DNA from: Fimbriiglobus sp.
GTDB taxonomy: Bacteria > Planctomycetota > Planctomycetia > Gemmatales > Gemmataceae
Direction: 5' to 3'
NCBI GenBank assembly: GCA_025362195.1
Contig: JANYHV010000013.1
Coordinates: 1 to 33,273 of the forward strand
Length of the DNA: 33,273 bases
Part shown: piece after piece, positions 3,490-23,117 of the stretch
How positions within the stretch are numbered: position 1 is the stretch's first letter
Layout of the letters: each line of letters starts with the position of its first letter
Translations under genes and position numbers: made by a program
The notes under the pieces: model-generated
What the model was told of the DNA's origin: nothing
Seen by the model: the letters and a program-made list of their open reading frames with translations, nothing else
The model's database searches: none

Positions 3490-5355
3490 TCACTTCACCA
3501 TCAGGCCCAGGCGGCGGGGGAATGCCGTCAGGGCTTCGAGCACGAGCTGCCAGCCGCGGTTGCTCGTCGCCACCGGCTTGCCGTTCTCGTGTAGCTCGAT
3601 CGTTTTGCCGCCCGGATCTGCGGTCAGCGCGTCGGAGAAGTCGCTGGCGGCGATGACGGCCACGCGGTGGTGGTGGTCCGGGCCGGCGGGGAAGCGGAGC
3701 AGGCGGCGGGTCGTGTCGGGCGGGCCGAACAGGCGGTTCCGGATGGCCGCCCCGGGCAGGTAGCACAACAGCATGGCCATCATGAACAGGCTGAACACGA
3801 TCAGCCCCATGAACGTGCCGATGCCGAAGTGGAAGGCCGCCGCGCCCATGATGAGCCACGGCCGCAGGCGGGTCCAGACCAGGAACGGGAAGCCGATTTC
3901 GATGACGAACGTGAACGCCACGCCGAACGCCGCCATCGCCGCGAACACCGGGCGGCTACTCACGAGCGTGCGGAGCAGGTTTTCGTACCACTGGTAGTAG
4001 ATCATCGTGAACTCGGGGTTCACGAGCGTGTCCCAGTACGCGGTCGTGTTCCACCAGGCCGCGCCCTTCAACTTCGACATGCCCGAGGCCAGGTAGATGA
4101 CGCAGAAGTGCATCTGCAACAGCCGCTGGGCGAACCCGGTGGCCACGGACAGCGGCGGGGCGTGCAGGTACGCCAGGGTCGCCGCGTCGAGGGTGCCGGT
4201 GCGGCGCAGGCTCAGCCGCGCGGCCCGGTACCGGTTGAGTAATCGGTCCAGCGACAGGGCCGCGCCGCAGTCCGAGATCATCAGGTAGATGAGCACGACG
4301 TTCATCATCGTGTCCATGCCGAACAGCACCTGCTGGCAGCGGTGGATGTAGCACAGCACGGCCAGCCAGGTCAGCACCGACGTGACCCGCGTGAACAGCC
4401 CGGCCGTGAACATCACGAACACGACCAGCATCGCGCAGTGGGCGACCCGCATCTCGGCCGGGTCGGTCATGTGGAACCAGATCGAGAAGACCGGCGACCC
4501 GGCCCGCAGCACGATCGCCGGATCGACGTTCCAGTACTCGAAGTACTCGAGCTGCTTGTCCCGCTCGGCGTACTCCAGCCGGACGAGCCGCTTCAACAGC
4601 ACGACCCACGCCTGCCGCTGGCCGTAGTCCATCTCGGCGAGGTGCTTCAAGACGTACGACTTCTCGGTCGCGTCGGTGGGGATCGTGCCGTAGTACGCCT
4701 CGGCTTCGCGGGCGAAGGTCGCGCGCTCGGCCGGGGACATGAGGCCGACGGCGTCCGGGCTGACGGAGATCGGCAGGTCGGGGACGCGGGTCTTGGCCAT
4801 CGCCGCCCGGCGGCCCTCGTCCACCAGCACGGCGAGTTGGTTCGCGCGGTCGGTCGGGTCGGCCGCCAGGCCGTCGATGTACGCGAGGCCCTGGAAGGTG
4901 AAGTTGCCCCCGACCGTCCGCCGGCGGATCTGGTCGATCTCGATCGCCTGGAGGCGTTCCAGGAACGCCAGCTTGGCGTCGAGTTCGGCGGGCGTGGCGG
5001 TCGGCCCGAGGTGGGCGCGGGCGTAGGCCATGATCGCCTTGCGGCGGTACGGGGCCTCCGGGATTTGCGCCGCGCGGGCCGGCTCGTACGGGTCTTCCCA
5101 CCCGGCCGGGGCGACGAAGTGCGGCAACTCCTTCCGCTCCCGCTCCGCGTTGGCGAGCGAGTACCAGGCGTCCTTGCCGAAGAAGTTGGACAGGTCGAAC
5201 GAGTACGCCAGGTGCGTGTACACGATCAGGCTCCCGACGACGATGCGGAGGAACGCCATCGTCGTCGGGTCGGCCGGGGCGAAGAAGAAGCTCAAGGAGC
5301 GCGCCCCGGCGTTCGGGTCCCGCGCCGCCGGCGTCGAAGGGGTGGACTGGCTCAT
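3490..5355 (-). CDS. HTTM-domain (vitamin K-dependent gamma-carboxylase-like) membrane protein
   Basis: A 621-residue multi-spanning membrane protein. After a short polar N-terminus comes a first hydrophobic helix around residues 33-53 (MAFLRIVVGSLIVYTHLAY). A large loop of about 230 residues follows, then at least five more hydrophobic segments in the C-terminal half, including the typical HTTM stretch QMHFCVIYLASGMSKL and a final span before a soluble tail. The HTTM family contains the membrane part of vitamin K-dependent gamma-carboxylases, but most bacterial members have no known reaction. The ATG at 5355 overlaps the stop of the upstream gene by four bases, so the two are translationally coupled. 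The large extracytoplasmic insert is longer than I expect for a plain HTTM protein. Carboxylase activity is not claimed. Confidence 0.8.
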   Translation of the reverse strand: MSQSTPSTPAARDPNAGARSLSFFFAPADPTTMAFLRIVVGSLIVYTHLAYSFDLSNFFGKDAWYSLANAERERKELPHFVAPAGWEDPYEPARAAQIPEAPYRRKAIMAYARAHLGPTATPAELDAKLAFLERLQAIEIDQIRRRTVGGNFTFQGLAYIDGLAADPTDRANQLAVLVDEGRRAAMAKTRVPDLPISVSPDAVGLMSPAERATFAREAEAYYGTIPTDATEKSYVLKHLAEMDYGQRQAWVVLLKRLVRLEYAERDKQLEYFEYWNVDPAIVLRAGSPVFSIWFHMTDPAEMRVAHCAMLVVFVMFTAGLFTRVTSVLTWLAVLCYIHRCQQVLFGMDTMMNVVLIYLMISDCGAALSLDRLLNRYRAARLSLRRTGTLDAATLAYLHAPPLSVATGFAQRLLQMHFCVIYLASGMSKLKGAAWWNTTAYWDTLVNPEFTMIYYQWYENLLRTLVSSRPVFAAMAAFGVAFTFVIEIGFPFLVWTRLRPWLIMGAAAFHFGIGTFMGLIVFSLFMMAMLLCYLPGAAIRNRLFGPPDTTRRLLRFPAGPDHHHRVAVIAASDFSDALTADPGGKTIELHENGKPVATSNRGWQLVLEALTAFPRRLGLMVK

Positions 5356-6629
5356 GGGCGCAACTGGCTCCAGGGGAACTCGTACCCGGAGTGCTCGGTC
5401 AGCAGGTCTTTGAACTGCTCCGGCCCCGGCTCGTCCAACTTCAGCTTGCCGGCCCGCGGCAGGATCGGGATCAGCCAGTACAGCATCGGGTCTTGCGGGT
5501 CCACGAGTTGCCCCTCGCGCGTGTAATCCCCCAGGAAGTAGACGCGGTACAGGGTCGGGTGGAACGGGCTGAGCTTCTGCGTCACGAAGTACTGCGTCGT
5601 CACGATGCGGTGCTCGGCCCGGTACAGCTTGACGTTCACGACCTTGAACCCCGGCGACGTGTGTTCGACGGCCAGGTGCTTCGTGAACGACGGCAATAAG
5701 AACCGGGTCACGTCGGCCTGCGGCTGGGCGTACCAGCGGAATTCGACCTCGTAGTTCGACGGCGGGTGCTCGATCCGCTTCACCCCCGGCAGCGCCCCGA
5801 GGGCCACGTCCTGGCGGCGGCGGTTGACCTGCGCCCGCTCGTCCGAGTTGTTGCCCAGGTCGGTCGTCGCGCGGACGGCGTTCTCGGTCAGCGACAGCCG
5901 GCGGTAGTACGTCTGGCCGAGCGGGTCCTTCCACTGCGTGTCCCGGCGCGGCAGGGTGACCCACTCGTGCAAGGTCTTCGGCTTCCCGGTCGCCGGGTCG
6001 GTCTCGTCGAGTTCGTAGGTCAGCAGCGCGAACAGGTGCGACGCCGGGCCGGGTTCGGGCGAGTAGAAGTGGTAGGCGTTCCGCAGGTACGTGAACTGCA
6101 TGAACGGCAAGTAAAACCGCTGGCCGAGTTGGTTCGTGATCCACGGCGACGATTCCGGCCAGGTCGTCGCCACGAGCAGCGACGAGAAGTGGAACGCGAC
6201 GAAGCCGACGATGACCGTCCGCCGGCCGACCCGGGCGATTGCCATCAGCCCCGCGCCGACGAACCCCGCCCCGGCGATCACGCGCATCAGCATCTGGCCC
6301 GAGTCCCAGTGGTCCGGTAAGCCGAAGCTGTTGGCTGCGGCCGTGAGGGCCGCGAGCAGCCAGACGAGCGGCGAGTCCGGGCGGAGGCTCAGCGCGCCCC
6401 CGGCGATCACGGCGGCCAGCGCCACGGCGACGAGCCGGACGGTCCCCGACGGCCCCGGCCCGTTCTCGCCGGCGACCAGGCCGACGACGACGGCCAGCAG
6501 GCTCAACCCGAGGGCCGCGACCGTGAGGCGGACGACCGCGGGCAACGCGGCCGGCGGCAAGACCTCTGTCGAGGGCGGGATCGGACTCGCGGGGACAATG
6601 GGCGTGGGGCGCGGGGAAGTGTCGGCCAT
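5352..6629 (-). CDS. Membrane protein partner of HTTM protein
   Basis: A 425-residue protein with a proline-rich start, four to five hydrophobic segments between residues ~30 and 160, and a soluble C-terminal domain of about 260 residues rich in aromatic and charged residues. It contains the stretch NAYHFYSPEPGPASHLF. I cannot name a Pfam family with certainty; similar proteins accompany HTTM genes in planctomycetes. A good ribosome-binding site (AGGAGGGG) precedes the ATG at 6629, and the gene ends in a four-base ATGA overlap with the HTTM gene, showing a two-gene operon. The 'SPEPGP...F..L.YEL' segment resembles the soluble portions of HTTM-associated proteins, so the pair probably forms one membrane complex. 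Function unknown. Confidence 0.75.
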   Translation of the reverse strand: MADTSPRPTPIVPASPIPPSTEVLPPAALPAVVRLTVAALGLSLLAVVVGLVAGENGPGPSGTVRLVAVALAAVIAGGALSLRPDSPLVWLLAALTAAANSFGLPDHWDSGQMLMRVIAGAGFVGAGLMAIARVGRRTVIVGFVAFHFSSLLVATTWPESSPWITNQLGQRFYLPFMQFTYLRNAYHFYSPEPGPASHLFALLTYELDETDPATGKPKTLHEWVTLPRRDTQWKDPLGQTYYRRLSLTENAVRATTDLGNNSDERAQVNRRRQDVALGALPGVKRIEHPPSNYEVEFRWYAQPQADVTRFLLPSFTKHLAVEHTSPGFKVVNVKLYRAEHRIVTTQYFVTQKLSPFHPTLYRVYFLGDYTREGQLVDPQDPMLYWLIPILPRAGKLKLDEPGPEQFKDLLTEHSGYEFPWSQLRP

Positions 6630-6674
6630 CGGTCCCCTCCTGGAACTGTGGTGCGCGTCGTGGCGTCGGTTGCC

Positions 6675-6680
6675 AGTATA
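6675..6680 (-). promoter_or_regulatory. Candidate -10 element of HTTM operon
   Basis: On the minus strand the hexamer TATACT lies about 45 bases before the ATG at 6629, in an otherwise GC-rich region. No convincing -35 element is seen at the usual distance. Confidence 0.35.
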
Positions 6681-7100
6681 GCCGACGGCACGGCCGGCGG
6701 CGTGGGCCGGCGGCGCGAACGCCGGGGTGCCGCACGCGCCGCGAGCGAGGATTCGACCCGACCGCTACGACGAGTTTCACCCGCCCATTTTTCCCAGTCG
6801 GAGCACCGGCCGGGGCGGCACGCAGCCCCCAGTCTGCCCCGAACGCCGGAAGCGTGAAAACTGCGTAGTTTGCCCGGTTTACTATTGAATCCCCGTGAGG
6901 CGAATCTTACCATCTGCTTACGCCGGTCGACTCCCGCGGAACCTTCCTTGATGGCCACCAATCCACGCCACCATTGAGTCTCACTGCCCGCCGACGCGAC
7001 CCCCCGACCCGGGGTCCGCTCGCGGCGGCGGCGTCGAGTTGACCGTTCGCGTTTGGGTTACGGGATTTCGTTCGACACCTGATTCAGGAGGATGAGTTCG
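6681..7100. other. Divergent intergenic region
   Basis: This gap separates the start of the HTTM operon (minus) from the CHG-repeat gene (plus). Bases ~6855-6920 are clearly more A/T-rich than the surroundings and are the likeliest place for a plus-strand promoter. Short open frames here have no recognisable motif and no ribosome-binding site. AGGAGG at 7086-7091 is the ribosome-binding site of the next gene. Confidence 0.5.
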
Positions 7101-15951: not shown

Positions 15952-16039
15952 GGAAGGGTGGCGGAGTGGTCTAACGCGTCAGTCTTGAAAACTGAAGTGG
16001 GGCTTGCCCCCACCGAGGGTTCGAATCCCTCCCCTTCCG
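15952..16039 (+). tRNA. tRNA-Ser (anticodon UGA)
   Basis: An 88-base type II tRNA. The acceptor stem GGAAGGG (15952-15958) pairs with CCCTTCC (16032-16038), followed by discriminator G at 16039. The anticodon arm TCAGT-CTTGAAA-ACTGA carries UGA. A long variable arm (GTGGGGCTTGCCCCCAC) and a T-arm GAGGG-TTCGAAT-CCCTC complete it. CCA is not encoded. It reads serine UCA codons. Its 3' part is repeated at 18324-18381. Confidence 0.97.
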
Positions 16040-16069
16040 CTTTCGGTCCGCTACGAAAGGATTTGTTTC
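16040..16069 (+). terminator. Hairpin after tRNA-Ser
   Basis: CTTTCG (16040-16045) pairs with CGAAAG (16054-16059) around an 8-base loop, followed by the T-rich run GATTTGTTTCT. It sits directly behind the tRNA and is the likely transcription end. The second, damaged tRNA copy retains the left arm, but its right arm has diverged. Confidence 0.6.
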
Positions 16070-18312: not shown

Positions 18313-18386
18313 CAAGGGTGCCGGCGTCAGTCTTGAAAACTGAAGTGGGGCTTGCCCCCACCGAGGGTTCGAATCCCTCCCTTCCG
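18313..18386 (+). pseudogene. tRNA-Ser(UGA) pseudogene lacking the D-arm
   Basis: Bases 18324-18381 are identical over 58 positions to 15976-16033 of the intact tRNA-Ser, covering the anticodon arm, variable arm and T-arm. Upstream, AAGGGTGCCG matches the start of the intact gene (AAGGGTGGCG), but about twelve bases of the D-arm are missing. One C is lost from the 3' acceptor strand, after which TTCCGCTTTCGGT again matches. Neither a D-arm nor a full acceptor stem can form, so it is not a working tRNA. Confidence 0.85.
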
Positions 18387-18439
18387 CTTTCGGTTCGCTG
18401 CGAATTGATTTGGCTCTTCGACGGGCCCGGCTCCGACTC

Positions 18440-18684: not shown

Positions 18685-19638
18685 TCAGTTGGCGATGGCG
18701 GTGATGTCGTACACGGCCCCGTCCCGCATCCCGGCGGCTTGCTGGAAGACGAACCAACTCGGGCTGTAGAAGTCCGTGGCCGGGCCGGAGAACTTGCGGA
18801 TCGTCCGCACCGACCCGTCGCAGTACCCGAAGTTGATCGCGCCGGTGTGGGCGCTGCCGAACGTGTACCAGGCGGCGTTCGTCGGCAGCCCCCAGGCCGT
18901 CGGCAGGTTCGACCCGCCCATCCACGACCCGGTGTAGTCGCGGGCACCGGGGTTCGACCCGCCGAACGTCTCGCCGAACCCGAGGGTGTTGCTCGTGCCG
19001 TCGCTGATGGCGACGATGCGGGTCCGCGAGTTCGGCGTGTACGCGCCGACCCACTGGCCGAAGTACGCGTCCGTCGTCGCCCCGAGCGTCCCCGACACGG
19101 AGGCGTAGTTCGTCCGGCCGAGGGGCGACGGGGCGGCGAACGACGCCGCGTTGATGCTCGTCCCGGCCGTGTAGTAGTAGGCGAACACGCCCGTCACCGG
19201 CTGGCCCTCGGACCCGAGCGGGTCGGACGGGCAGAGGAAGTTCTTGACCTTCGTTTGGGCCGGCGCGTACGCGCTCGCCCACCACGGCCCGGACACGGTC
19301 GCCGGGGGCAGGTTGAACAGGGTGGGGTCGATTCCGGCGTGCAGGTTCCCCTGCTCGAGGTACGGCAGCAGGAACGGCAGGGTGCCGACGTAGCTCGTCT
19401 GTGCGGCCTTGCCCGGCGTGTACACGATGCCCGGCGGCAGCCACCCGTTCGCGCTCTCGTAGTTGTGCGCGGCCAGCGAAATCTGCTTCAGGTTGTTCTG
19501 GCACGTCATCCGGCTGGCGGCCTCCCGGACCTTCTGCACCGCCGGCAGGAGCAGGCCGATGAGGATGGCGATGATGGCGATCACCACCAGCAATTCGATC
19601 AGGGTGAAGGCGGCCCGGCGTCGGCGGAAGGTGTGCAT
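18685..19638 (-). CDS. DUF1559 prepilin-like protein
   Basis: A 317-residue protein of the large planctomycete DUF1559 family. The ATG at 19638 starts MHTFRRRRAAFTLIELLVVI, a type IV prepilin leader with cleavage expected before Phe11 and Glu at +5, followed by the hydrophobic helix AIIAILIGLLLPAVQKVREAA. The residue before the cleavage site is Ala rather than the usual Gly. After the helix comes the conserved QNNLKQISLAAHNYESANG. The C-terminus has the H-X9-DG motif (HTGAINFGYCDGSV). Such proteins are exported and assembled or anchored like pseudopilins; their exact job is unknown. The frame extends upstream to 19974 but has no pilin character there. Confidence 0.9.
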   Translation of the reverse strand: MHTFRRRRAAFTLIELLVVIAIIAILIGLLLPAVQKVREAASRMTCQNNLKQISLAAHNYESANGWLPPGIVYTPGKAAQTSYVGTLPFLLPYLEQGNLHAGIDPTLFNLPPATVSGPWWASAYAPAQTKVKNFLCPSDPLGSEGQPVTGVFAYYYTAGTSINAASFAAPSPLGRTNYASVSGTLGATTDAYFGQWVGAYTPNSRTRIVAISDGTSNTLGFGETFGGSNPGARDYTGSWMGGSNLPTAWGLPTNAAWYTFGSAHTGAINFGYCDGSVRTIRKFSGPATDFYSPSWFVFQQAAGMRDGAVYDITAIAN

Positions 19639-19967
19639 GACATCTCGTGTGGTGCGGATTGCAGGAATATTGGTGGTTGTGACGAGCGTAGGACGCGAAC
19701 CGACCTGGGGCGCACTTTGCCCGTGAGAATCGTCGCGGGCGGGCGGTTCGGATTTCGAGACGGCCGAGCAAATTGCCGCAAAGTTCCGGCGGCCCTGCGG
19801 CACGCGGCGGTCGCAGTTTGGAGCGGCAAACCGCCCGCACCGGCAGCGCCCGAAGCCCGGCCGGAGTCGATTCCGAATTCGCCGGAGATTGTCCGGCCAG
19901 TGGCACGCCAGTCGCGGAAGAATCTGGTGTTCACCTTCCGCAGAATGGGTAAGATGGGCGGTACACC
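19639..19967. other. Divergent intergenic region
   Basis: Separates the DUF1559 gene (minus) from the TIGR02996 gene (plus) and must hold both promoters. TAAGAT at about 19951-19956 could be the plus-strand -10 element. Nothing else is recognised; open frames across it have no motif. Confidence 0.45.
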
Positions 19968-20957
19968 ATGACAAACGAACCCGACGCTTTCCTGCGAACG
20001 ATCCTGGCCAACCCGGCCGACCCCCTGCCCCGCCTCGTCTTCGCGGACTGGCTGGAGGAGACGGGGGCGAGGTCGAACATCGCCTGGGCCAAGTACCTCC
20101 GGCTGTCCGAGGAGGTCGCGGCCCTGCCCCCGGGCGACGACTCCCGCGACAAAAAGCTCCGCCTGCTCGCCCGCCTCGGCACGCTGATCCAGGCGAAGCT
20201 GCGCTACAAGGCCGAGGTGTTCGTCGCCCACTCCGAGTGCCTGCGGCGGGTCTTGCCGCTCCGGTGCATGATCCTCGACGTGGACACGGTGGCGGTGTCG
20301 CACGAGTTGGCCGACGCCCTGCCGGCGAGCCTGGCGCTGGAGTACGCGGTCGTGCCGCTGCACCTCGACGCGACGACGCTGACCGTCGCCGCCGAGGAGA
20401 TGACCGCCGACGCGGTGGACACCCTGGGCTTCCTCGTCAACCGCCGCGTCGAGTGGGTGCCCGCGGCGCGGGAAGCCTTGCACCGGGCCGTCGAGAAGGC
20501 GTACGAAGCGGTCGGCGTCGAGCACGCCGATTGCGTGACCTTTAGCATCCCGTTCGCCCCCCCGCTGCCCCTCGAAGACGCCCAGACGCCGGCCCACCGC
20601 ATCATCGAGCTGTTCCTGAGTGACGCCCGCGACGAGGACGTGCGGGACATCGTCATCCGTCGCGCGGGGCCGCGCATCGAGGTGCGCTTCTACCGCCCCG
20701 GGACTTCGGAGTACGACATTTGGGGCGGCTTTCCTCCGGCCGTTCACCTGCCGATGGTCAACCACTTCCGCCGGCTGGCCCGCCTGCCCCAGGACGGCAC
20801 CGAGCCGGAGCAGTCCGGGATCTTCCGCTACCACTTCGGGTCGCGGTTTTACGACGTGGCCTTGCGCATCCAACCGGGCATTTCCGGCCCGCAAATCCAC
20901 CTGACGATCCTGCCGTACCTGTCCGAGCCGACCATCGCCGTTAACCGCGTGGCGTAG
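19968..20957 (+). CDS. TIGR02996 domain fused to GspE/PilB N-terminal domains, no ATPase
   Basis: A 329-residue soluble protein. Residues 1-50 are the Gemmata-type TIGR02996 domain (EPDAFLRTILANPADPLPRLV followed by FADWLEE). Residues ~110-185 resemble the N-terminal domain of type II secretion/type IV pilus assembly ATPases (ALPASLALEYAVVPLHLD, LTVAAEEMT, VEWVPAAREAL). Residues ~205-325 resemble the N2 domain before the ATPase core (RIIELFLSDARDEDVRDIVI, IEVRFYRPG, LPMVNHFRRLARLPQDG, YDVALRIQPG). The protein stops there: no Walker A, Walker B or His box. It may be a regulator or adaptor that mimics the ATPase's docking surface, which is inference. The ATG at 19968 fits the domain start. Confidence 0.75.
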   Translation: MTNEPDAFLRTILANPADPLPRLVFADWLEETGARSNIAWAKYLRLSEEVAALPPGDDSRDKKLRLLARLGTLIQAKLRYKAEVFVAHSECLRRVLPLRCMILDVDTVAVSHELADALPASLALEYAVVPLHLDATTLTVAAEEMTADAVDTLGFLVNRRVEWVPAAREALHRAVEKAYEAVGVEHADCVTFSIPFAPPLPLEDAQTPAHRIIELFLSDARDEDVRDIVIRRAGPRIEVRFYRPGTSEYDIWGGFPPAVHLPMVNHFRRLARLPQDGTEPEQSGIFRYHFGSRFYDVALRIQPGISGPQIHLTILPYLSEPTIAVNRVA

Positions 20958-21473
20958 TCCGGCCGGCAGCCGGTGGGCGAGTTGTGTGAACATCGCGTGA
21001 AAGATCGTGACGCTTTTCCGTTGACCTTCTCCCGCCCGGTTCATCATAATGTGAGTTGTAAACCTCGCCCGGAGCGGCGAGTCGATCGTTGCACTGCGGT
21101 CGGCCGCCGCGGTGCCAGTCCCGGAGGGACTGTTCGTGACGCGCCGTTGACATAAATATTGCCGTGCCGTTGGTGCTTTCGTCCTCGGTCCTTTGAACCC
21201 TGCCGACTCGCGAGGCAGGTTTGACGCCCGGTGGGGCCGGGGAGACCCGGTTCCCGCCCCGACTTGCTGAAGCTCTGGAAGTCCCGGTTTCCACTCGCCG
21301 GTTCGCCGTTTTCGGGCGACCGCCGGCGGGCGGAAACCGTCCGCCAACCCGCGTTGCAAAACGTCGGGCCGGCCCGTGCCCCGCGACCGCGGGTGGCGGT
21401 CGCCGGCCGGGGTCTCAGGGTCACCGGCCCGCCGAGCCGTACCGCACCGACGCGCCGTGAAGGAGCTGTTCGG
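20958..21473. other. Long leader region upstream of rny
   Basis: 516 bases without a gene. A sigma-70-like promoter candidate is at 21021-21050, giving a leader of more than 400 bases. A second TTGACA lies near 21147 in an A/T-rich patch, without a good -10. The frame continuous with rny from 21231 is not considered coding, because the strong ribosome-binding site and membrane anchor belong to the ATG at 21474. Confidence 0.5.
21021..21050 (+). promoter_or_regulatory. Candidate promoter for rny-ymdB
   Basis: TTGACC at 21021-21026 and CATAAT at 21045-21050 are separated by 18 bases, close to a sigma-70 consensus, and the -10 region is unusually A/T-rich for this genome. Confidence 0.45.
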
Positions 21474-23117
21474 ATGGACAACCCCGCGCTCGTTGCCGGG
21501 CTGGCGGTACTCGTCACCCTCGCCCTGGTCGGCGTCGCCTACGCCCTGTTCCGCACGGTCGGCCGGGACGCCGCCGCGCCGGCCGCCGACACGCTGACCG
21601 CCCCCGCCCCGCTGCTCGTCCCGACCGGCCCGGCCGAGGCCGAGCAGGTCCGCCTCGGCGAGTCCCGCGCCCAGGCCATCATCGAGAACGCCCGCCGCGA
21701 CGCCGAACGCCTCTTGAAGGACGCCGAGCACCGGGCCAAGGACGAGTCGTACCGCCGCCGCGAGGACCTGAACAAGGAACTCGACGCCGCCCGGACCGAA
21801 CTCCGCGAGCAGGAACGCCGCGCCCAGAAGCGCGACGACGCGGCCGAGGACGCGGCCAAGGAACTCGCCCGCAAGGACAAGCAACTCGACGCCGCCCAGC
21901 GGAAGACGGCCGAGCAACTCGCAACCTTCGAGAAGAAGACGGTCGAACTCGACGCGGTCATCAAGCAGGAGACGAAGGCCCTGCACGACATCACCGGGCT
22001 GAGCCGCGAGGCGGCCGAGGCGACGTTGTTCGAGAAGCTCGAACGGGAGTTGACGACCGAGTTCGCGTCCCGCATCCAGAAGCACACCGACGTGCTGAAG
22101 TCCGAGTGCGAGGCGAAGGCCCGCGAGATCATCACGATCGCCCTGCAGCGGTACGCCGCCCAGCACACCGCCGACTCGACGGTCAGCACGGTGGACATCC
22201 CGGACGACCAGATGAAGGGCCGGATCATCGGCCGCGAGGGCCGCAACATCCGCACCTTCGAGAAGTGTACCGGGGTCGATGTGATCGTGGACGACACCCC
22301 CGGCGTCGTCGTCGTCTCGGCGTTCGACAACGTGCGCCGGGAGACGGCCCGCATCGCGCTCACGAAGCTGATCCAGGACGGCCGCATCCACCCGACGCGG
22401 ATCGAGGAGGTCGTTCTCGAGACGCAACAAGAGATGGAGAAGACGATTCAGGAGGCCGGACAACAGGCGGTGCTCAACGCCGACGTGACGATGCCGCACG
22501 AGAAGATCGTCCACCTGCTCGGCCGCCTGAAGTACCGCACCAGTTACTCGCAAAACGTGCTGCTGCACAGCCTCGAAGTCGCGCACCTGTGCGGCATGAT
22601 GGCGTCCGAACTCGGCCTCGACCCGCGGCTCGCCCGGCGGTGCGGGCTGTTGCACGACGTGGGCAAGGCGGCCGACCACGAGATGGAGGGCGGGCACCCC
22701 AAGGTCGGGGCCGAACTCGCCAAGCGGTACGGCGAGACGAGCAAGGAAGTCCTGCACGCCATCGCCGGCCACCACGACGACATTACCGTCGATCACATTT
22801 ATACGGTCCTGGTCGCCGCGGCGGACGCCATCAGCGCCAGCCGGCCCGGCGCGCGGCGCGAGACCCTGGAGCGCTACGTCAAGCGCATGGCCGACCTCGA
22901 AGCGGTCGCGTGCGGCTTCCCGGAAGTGGACGCGGCGTTCGCCATCCAGGCCGGCCGCGAGTTGCGCGTCATCGCCAACTCGCACCGGACTTCGGACGCG
23001 GACGCGGTGCGCATCTGCCGGGAAATCGCCCGCGCCATCGAGGAGCAACTCGACTACCCTGGCGAGATCAAGGTGACCGTCATCCGCGAGATGCGCATCC
23101 TCGAAATGGCCAAGTAA
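21474..23117 (+). CDS. rny: Ribonuclease Y
   Basis: A 547-residue membrane-anchored endoribonuclease that starts decay of many mRNAs. The ATG at 21474 is preceded by AAGGAG and begins a single N-terminal span ([20 protein letters not shown]). A long coiled coil follows (~60-190, rich in Glu, Lys, Arg and Ala). The KH domain has [19 protein letters not shown] (from about residue 245). The HD domain has [10 protein letters not shown] (His365) and [12 protein letters not shown] with the catalytic His394-Asp395 pair. The C-terminus ends [18 protein letters not shown], matching the family. The length is slightly above the common ~520. The next gene, ymdB, starts 16 bases downstream, the same order as in Bacillus. 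Confidence 0.96.

Follow-up and report, generated by a model that had tools for sequence, protein, structure and literature searches.

On balance, our analyses favour the view that a 329-aa protein encoded in the window (the whole 33,273-nucleotide stretch of a Fimbriiglobus sp. contig analysed here, from genome G000) is a conserved paralogue, lacking the ATPase core, of PilB, the extension ATPase of type IV pili, and that it has been recruited as a binding adaptor. The gene belongs to a real, selectively maintained family present in some Gemmataceae. Domain and profile matches, a set of relatives with the same layout, a well-supported branch apart from PilB, a low dN/dS and the loss of N2 hallmark residues speak for this reading, while the existence of shortened or N2-less relatives, as in a dispensable gene, counts against it.

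Domain organization

TIGR02996, a domain expanded in planctomycetes, opens the protein, as the first-pass annotation had proposed: its model scored 47.9 bits over residues 6-50, against a cut-off of 29.05, and was matched by 8/8 family members tested. The Pfam model MshEN (PF05157) scored 42.3 bits over residues 103-181 (cut-off 23.1). N2 scored below threshold in the single 329-aa sequence, its match coming via a family profile (A1) of eight relatives, which aligned with PilB proteins of known structure over 105-324 (E 5e-31) and with N2 of the GspE structure 1p9r over 210-326 (E 1e-12). When the family was compared by HHalign with eight Gemmataceae PilBs, the probability was 100% (E 6e-47, columns 106-327), and the match stopped at MRILDR, the N2/ATPase boundary, where the ATPase core of PilB would start. 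A search of the 329-aa protein for a Walker A motif found none. The coordinates, start, stop and overall architecture given by the annotation, including the missing ATPase core, were correct, and of the two GspE/PilB domains that it had named, N2 was recovered by the family profile, and N1 for its C-lobe but not for its helical N-lobe. The PilB alignment begins within the N1 C-lobe; N1 is represented by this lobe alone, the helical N-lobe (the c-di-GMP lobe) being replaced by TIGR02996 and a linker.

Table 1. Features of the gene and its immediate surroundings, in positions of the window
Feature	Position	Strand	Remarks
DUF1559 gene, N-terminal methylation motif (prepilin-type N-terminus)	18685..19638	-	Divergent, 330 bp from the ORF; not part of the feature
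TAAGAT, -10-like hexamer	19950..19955	+	12 nt 5' of the ATG; kept in the closest orthologue; consensus only
ORF	19968..20957	+	329 aa; TIGR02996, linker, N1 C-lobe (MshEN), N2; ATPase core absent
TIGR02996 domain	19983..20117	+	Residues 6-50
Helical linker	20118..20273	+	Residues 51-102; occupies the place of the MshEN helical N-lobe
N1 C-lobe, Pfam MshEN	20274..20510	+	Residues 103-181
N2 domain	20589..20921	+	About residues 208-318; PilB N2 blocks eroded
rny (RNase Y)	21474..23117	+	Next gene downstream of the ORF; likewise in G007

A structure model computed from a two-sequence alignment was poor (mean pLDDT 42) and the fold assignment therefore rests on sequence profiles; the helices of the linker were seen in this low-confidence model only. 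GC content by codon position in the ORF was 0.71/0.45/0.93. Truncation through an assembly error was ruled out by the closest orthologue (genome G007), which is 85% identical and has the same length and end. A search for anti-phage systems with PADLOC gave no match.

As in the PilB/GspE extension ATPases (TIGR02538, TIGR02533; profile-profile probability 100%), the N1 C-lobe precedes N2 in the protein, which differs from them by the absence of the ATPase domain, the Walker motif and the helical N1 lobe, and by its eroded N2 hallmarks. With the MshEN receptors of c-di-GMP it shares the Pfam domain above cut-off, but not their 24-residue RLGxx... motif, and with the TIGR02996 proteins of Gemmata and relatives it shares the N-terminal domain above cut-off, whereas its C-terminal half is PilB-derived and not LRR-like as in most of them. 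A precedent for MshEN outside ATPases is provided by fusions such as NfrB (PMC5013675).

Other unusual MshEN contexts were observed during the survey. An ORF of locus L102 (G065:C7, 2-3361) encodes a Valyl-tRNA synthetase with an in-frame MshEN (83 bits) inside the anticodon-binding region. The VIT-VWA protein of L061 (G029:C896, ORF 3558-7001) has MshEN and a portion of T2SSE fused to it and lacks Walker A; its N1-N2 piece groups with the PilB of the same genome (100/100). Proteins of ~630-650 aa encoded in L048 and L062 have MshEN at the N-terminus and lack Walker A, their remainder being SPFH/band-7-like by eye; in L048 no Pfam match was obtained beyond MshEN.

Residue changes in N2 and N1

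Columns of N2 that are invariant in 40 ATPases were scored in 15 family members. Core residues were kept (A220 in 15/15, G284 and G307 in 14/15 each), and the key hallmark residues were retained overall in 0-2/15 members versus 40/40 ATPases. In the SDIHIEP block, S was kept in 0/15, H in 1/15 and E in 1/15; neither E and K of EKRR nor D, R and K of QDGRIK, both within the EKRRPQDGRIK block, were kept in any of the 15, and the same held for R of MRI in the MRILDR block (0/15). Because these conserved blocks are eroded, the usual docking of N2 into the PilB ring is unlikely for the family. In N1, the 329-aa protein departs from PilB-invariant positions at residues 120 (E to A), 124 (R to L) and 152 (K to T).

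In MshE, the c-di-GMP motif sits in the helical N-lobe (PMC5013675). No family member matched the tandem motif RLGxx(L/V/I)..., strict or relaxed, nor did any of the PilB rows scanned alongside, and c-di-GMP sensing by the family is unlikely on this basis.

Distribution, phylogeny and selection

Looking for the same truncated architecture in other Gemmataceae, as the annotation had suggested, we recovered relatives combining TIGR02996 and the N1 lobe in 24/95 genomes from 5 genera, using the eight-relative profile. N2 was retained to the end in 15 rows, and the other relatives were shortened or divergent: those of G014, G022, G026, G089 and one G051 copy were cut short or without N2, and that of G091 was interrupted by a contig end. 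Among the matches listed from 391 other genomes of the phylum, none covered the TIGR02996 part, and they fit ordinary ATPases or partial frames. Phylogenetic analysis of the N1-N2 region placed the 15 N2-bearing rows on one side of a branch with 100/98 support, apart from PilB, in a topology whose root is not fixed, whose branches are very long and in which the order within the family is unsure.

The gene is under purifying selection: comparison with the G007 orthologue gave dS 0.52, dN 0.088 and dN/dS 0.17, with the lowest values of the gene in the N2 part (~0.09-0.10), and pairs from genus g6 gave dN/dS of 0.28-0.32.

TIGR02996 itself had 24 matches in the window's genome, mostly on other, LRR-like C-terminal halves, so that the suggestion that this domain marks the family regulated by the protein found no support. 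No paper naming TIGR02996 was found in the literature collection searched.

Genomic context and a proposed link to the pilus machinery

The prepilin-like DUF1559 neighbour had made a functional link attractive. This link was rejected, the neighbour being absent beside the G007 orthologue, where an R2K ATP-grasp gene holds the equivalent place, and lying within a stretch that the two genomes do not share: between the tRNA-Ser (16041) and position 19875 they do not align, a tRNA-Ser fragment excepted. DUF1559 had 80 matches in the window's genome, and an immediate divergent DUF1559 gene was found beside the family gene at only one other locus, in G044. Several g6 loci have DUF1559 genes a few kb downstream of rtcB, which we read as shared synteny. 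The 3' part of the window's tRNA-Ser (15952-16040) recurs 2.3 kb later, at 18324-18388; the tRNA gene and this repeat flank ORFs, of which those tested had no Pfam match, and the arrangement, which G007 lacks, resembles an insertion at a tRNA gene.

The protein could still act on a type IV pilus or type II machine as a decoy or regulator, its N1 C-lobe competing with PilB for a PilM-type stator and so keeping the motor off the platform. By analogy with GspE, the part of PilB proposed to touch the stator is N1, the domain containing PF05157 (PMC11656802), and the window's genome encodes PilM (G000:C212) and, at G000:C494, two MshEN-containing PilB-like proteins. We nevertheless consider such a role unlikely, since no pilus gene was recognised among the annotated neighbours of family members at ~20 loci, invariant positions of N1 are changed, N2 hallmarks are lost and the DUF1559 link fails. 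Of the adaptor or decoy proposed by the annotation, the adaptor stays plausible, in a genome that has both PilB and PilM; a decoy of the ring through N2 is improbable given the eroded blocks.

Association with archease, rtcB and rny

The recurrent neighbours of the family gene are fabH, archease and rtcB, a frequent order in the relatives being L21, a ~480-aa protein, fabH, the family gene, archease and rtcB. All 21 family genomes having archease carry it downstream of the family gene on the same strand; the two are immediate neighbours in 20 (gaps of 32-206 nt) and 1.3 kb apart in G047. Archease is usually followed by rtcB, and its link to the family gene persists where fabH is no longer adjacent. 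The gene of the window is instead followed by rny-ymdB.

These associations raise the possibility of a factor of RNA repair or turnover, acting with archease-RtcB in the majority of members and alongside RNase Y in the clade of the window, where both the window and G007 have rny downstream. We regard this as quite unlikely. FabH can adjoin archease in genomes without the family gene, so that the gene was probably inserted into an older fabH-archease block. Moreover, a GAACC-N15/16-TGTC box precedes archease by 12-43 nt at most of the loci examined (L114-L133 and L194-L213), with or without the family gene (expected 0.013 per region), and archease may for this reason be transcribed separately, in which case the linkage may be an inherited position. 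Finally, G000 and G007 keep the gene, but archease and rtcB were not found in either of these genomes, which are 86-87% complete.

The archease box resembles an ECF-sigma promoter. In G014, G027, G041 and G044, the rtcB frames reach ~1020 aa, with a long intein-like insertion near profile position 50. The gap between the gene and rny in the window (20958-21473) contains a TTGACC...CATAAT-like stretch; it shows ~79% identity to G007 over aligned columns, including a conserved CCTGCC...GGCAGG stretch.

The slot between fabH and archease is occupied in G024 and G012 by a TIGR02996-LRR gene or a relic, and truncated copies also occur there. Together with the PilB-derived N1-N2 piece of the VIT-VWA protein, which groups with its own genome's PilB, this would fit a gene that arose as a side product of domain shuffling at a spot where TIGR02996 inserts and that is drifting to loss without a fixed function; the equal length of the gene in the window's clade and its dN/dS, lowest in N2, make this very unlikely. 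It is similarly improbable that the TIGR02996 system took over a docking module of the pilus motor and made of it a cofactor of RNA repair or RNA decay, whose partner would be archease-RtcB in several genera of the Gemmataceae and RNase Y in the Fimbriiglobus-like clade of the window.

Discussion

Under the favoured reading of an adaptor paralogue, the N1 C-lobe and N2 of a PilB-type ATPase would have been placed behind TIGR02996, with the c-di-GMP lobe and the motor gone. We infer that the protein arose through a fusion involving a PilB of the Gemmataceae. TIGR02996 would serve as a common handle on many Gemmataceae proteins with differing C-terminal halves, and the N1-N2 module as the binding half of the adaptor, a function that we likewise infer for the 329-aa protein. 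There are two candidate partners, a PilM-type stator or a protein of RNA metabolism.

The family indicates that selection can maintain the stator-side half of a pilus motor after its separation from the motor and its attachment to TIGR02996. As TIGR02996 constitutes a large and unexplained planctomycete domain family, a binding test of the 329-aa protein would provide a first handle on its role.
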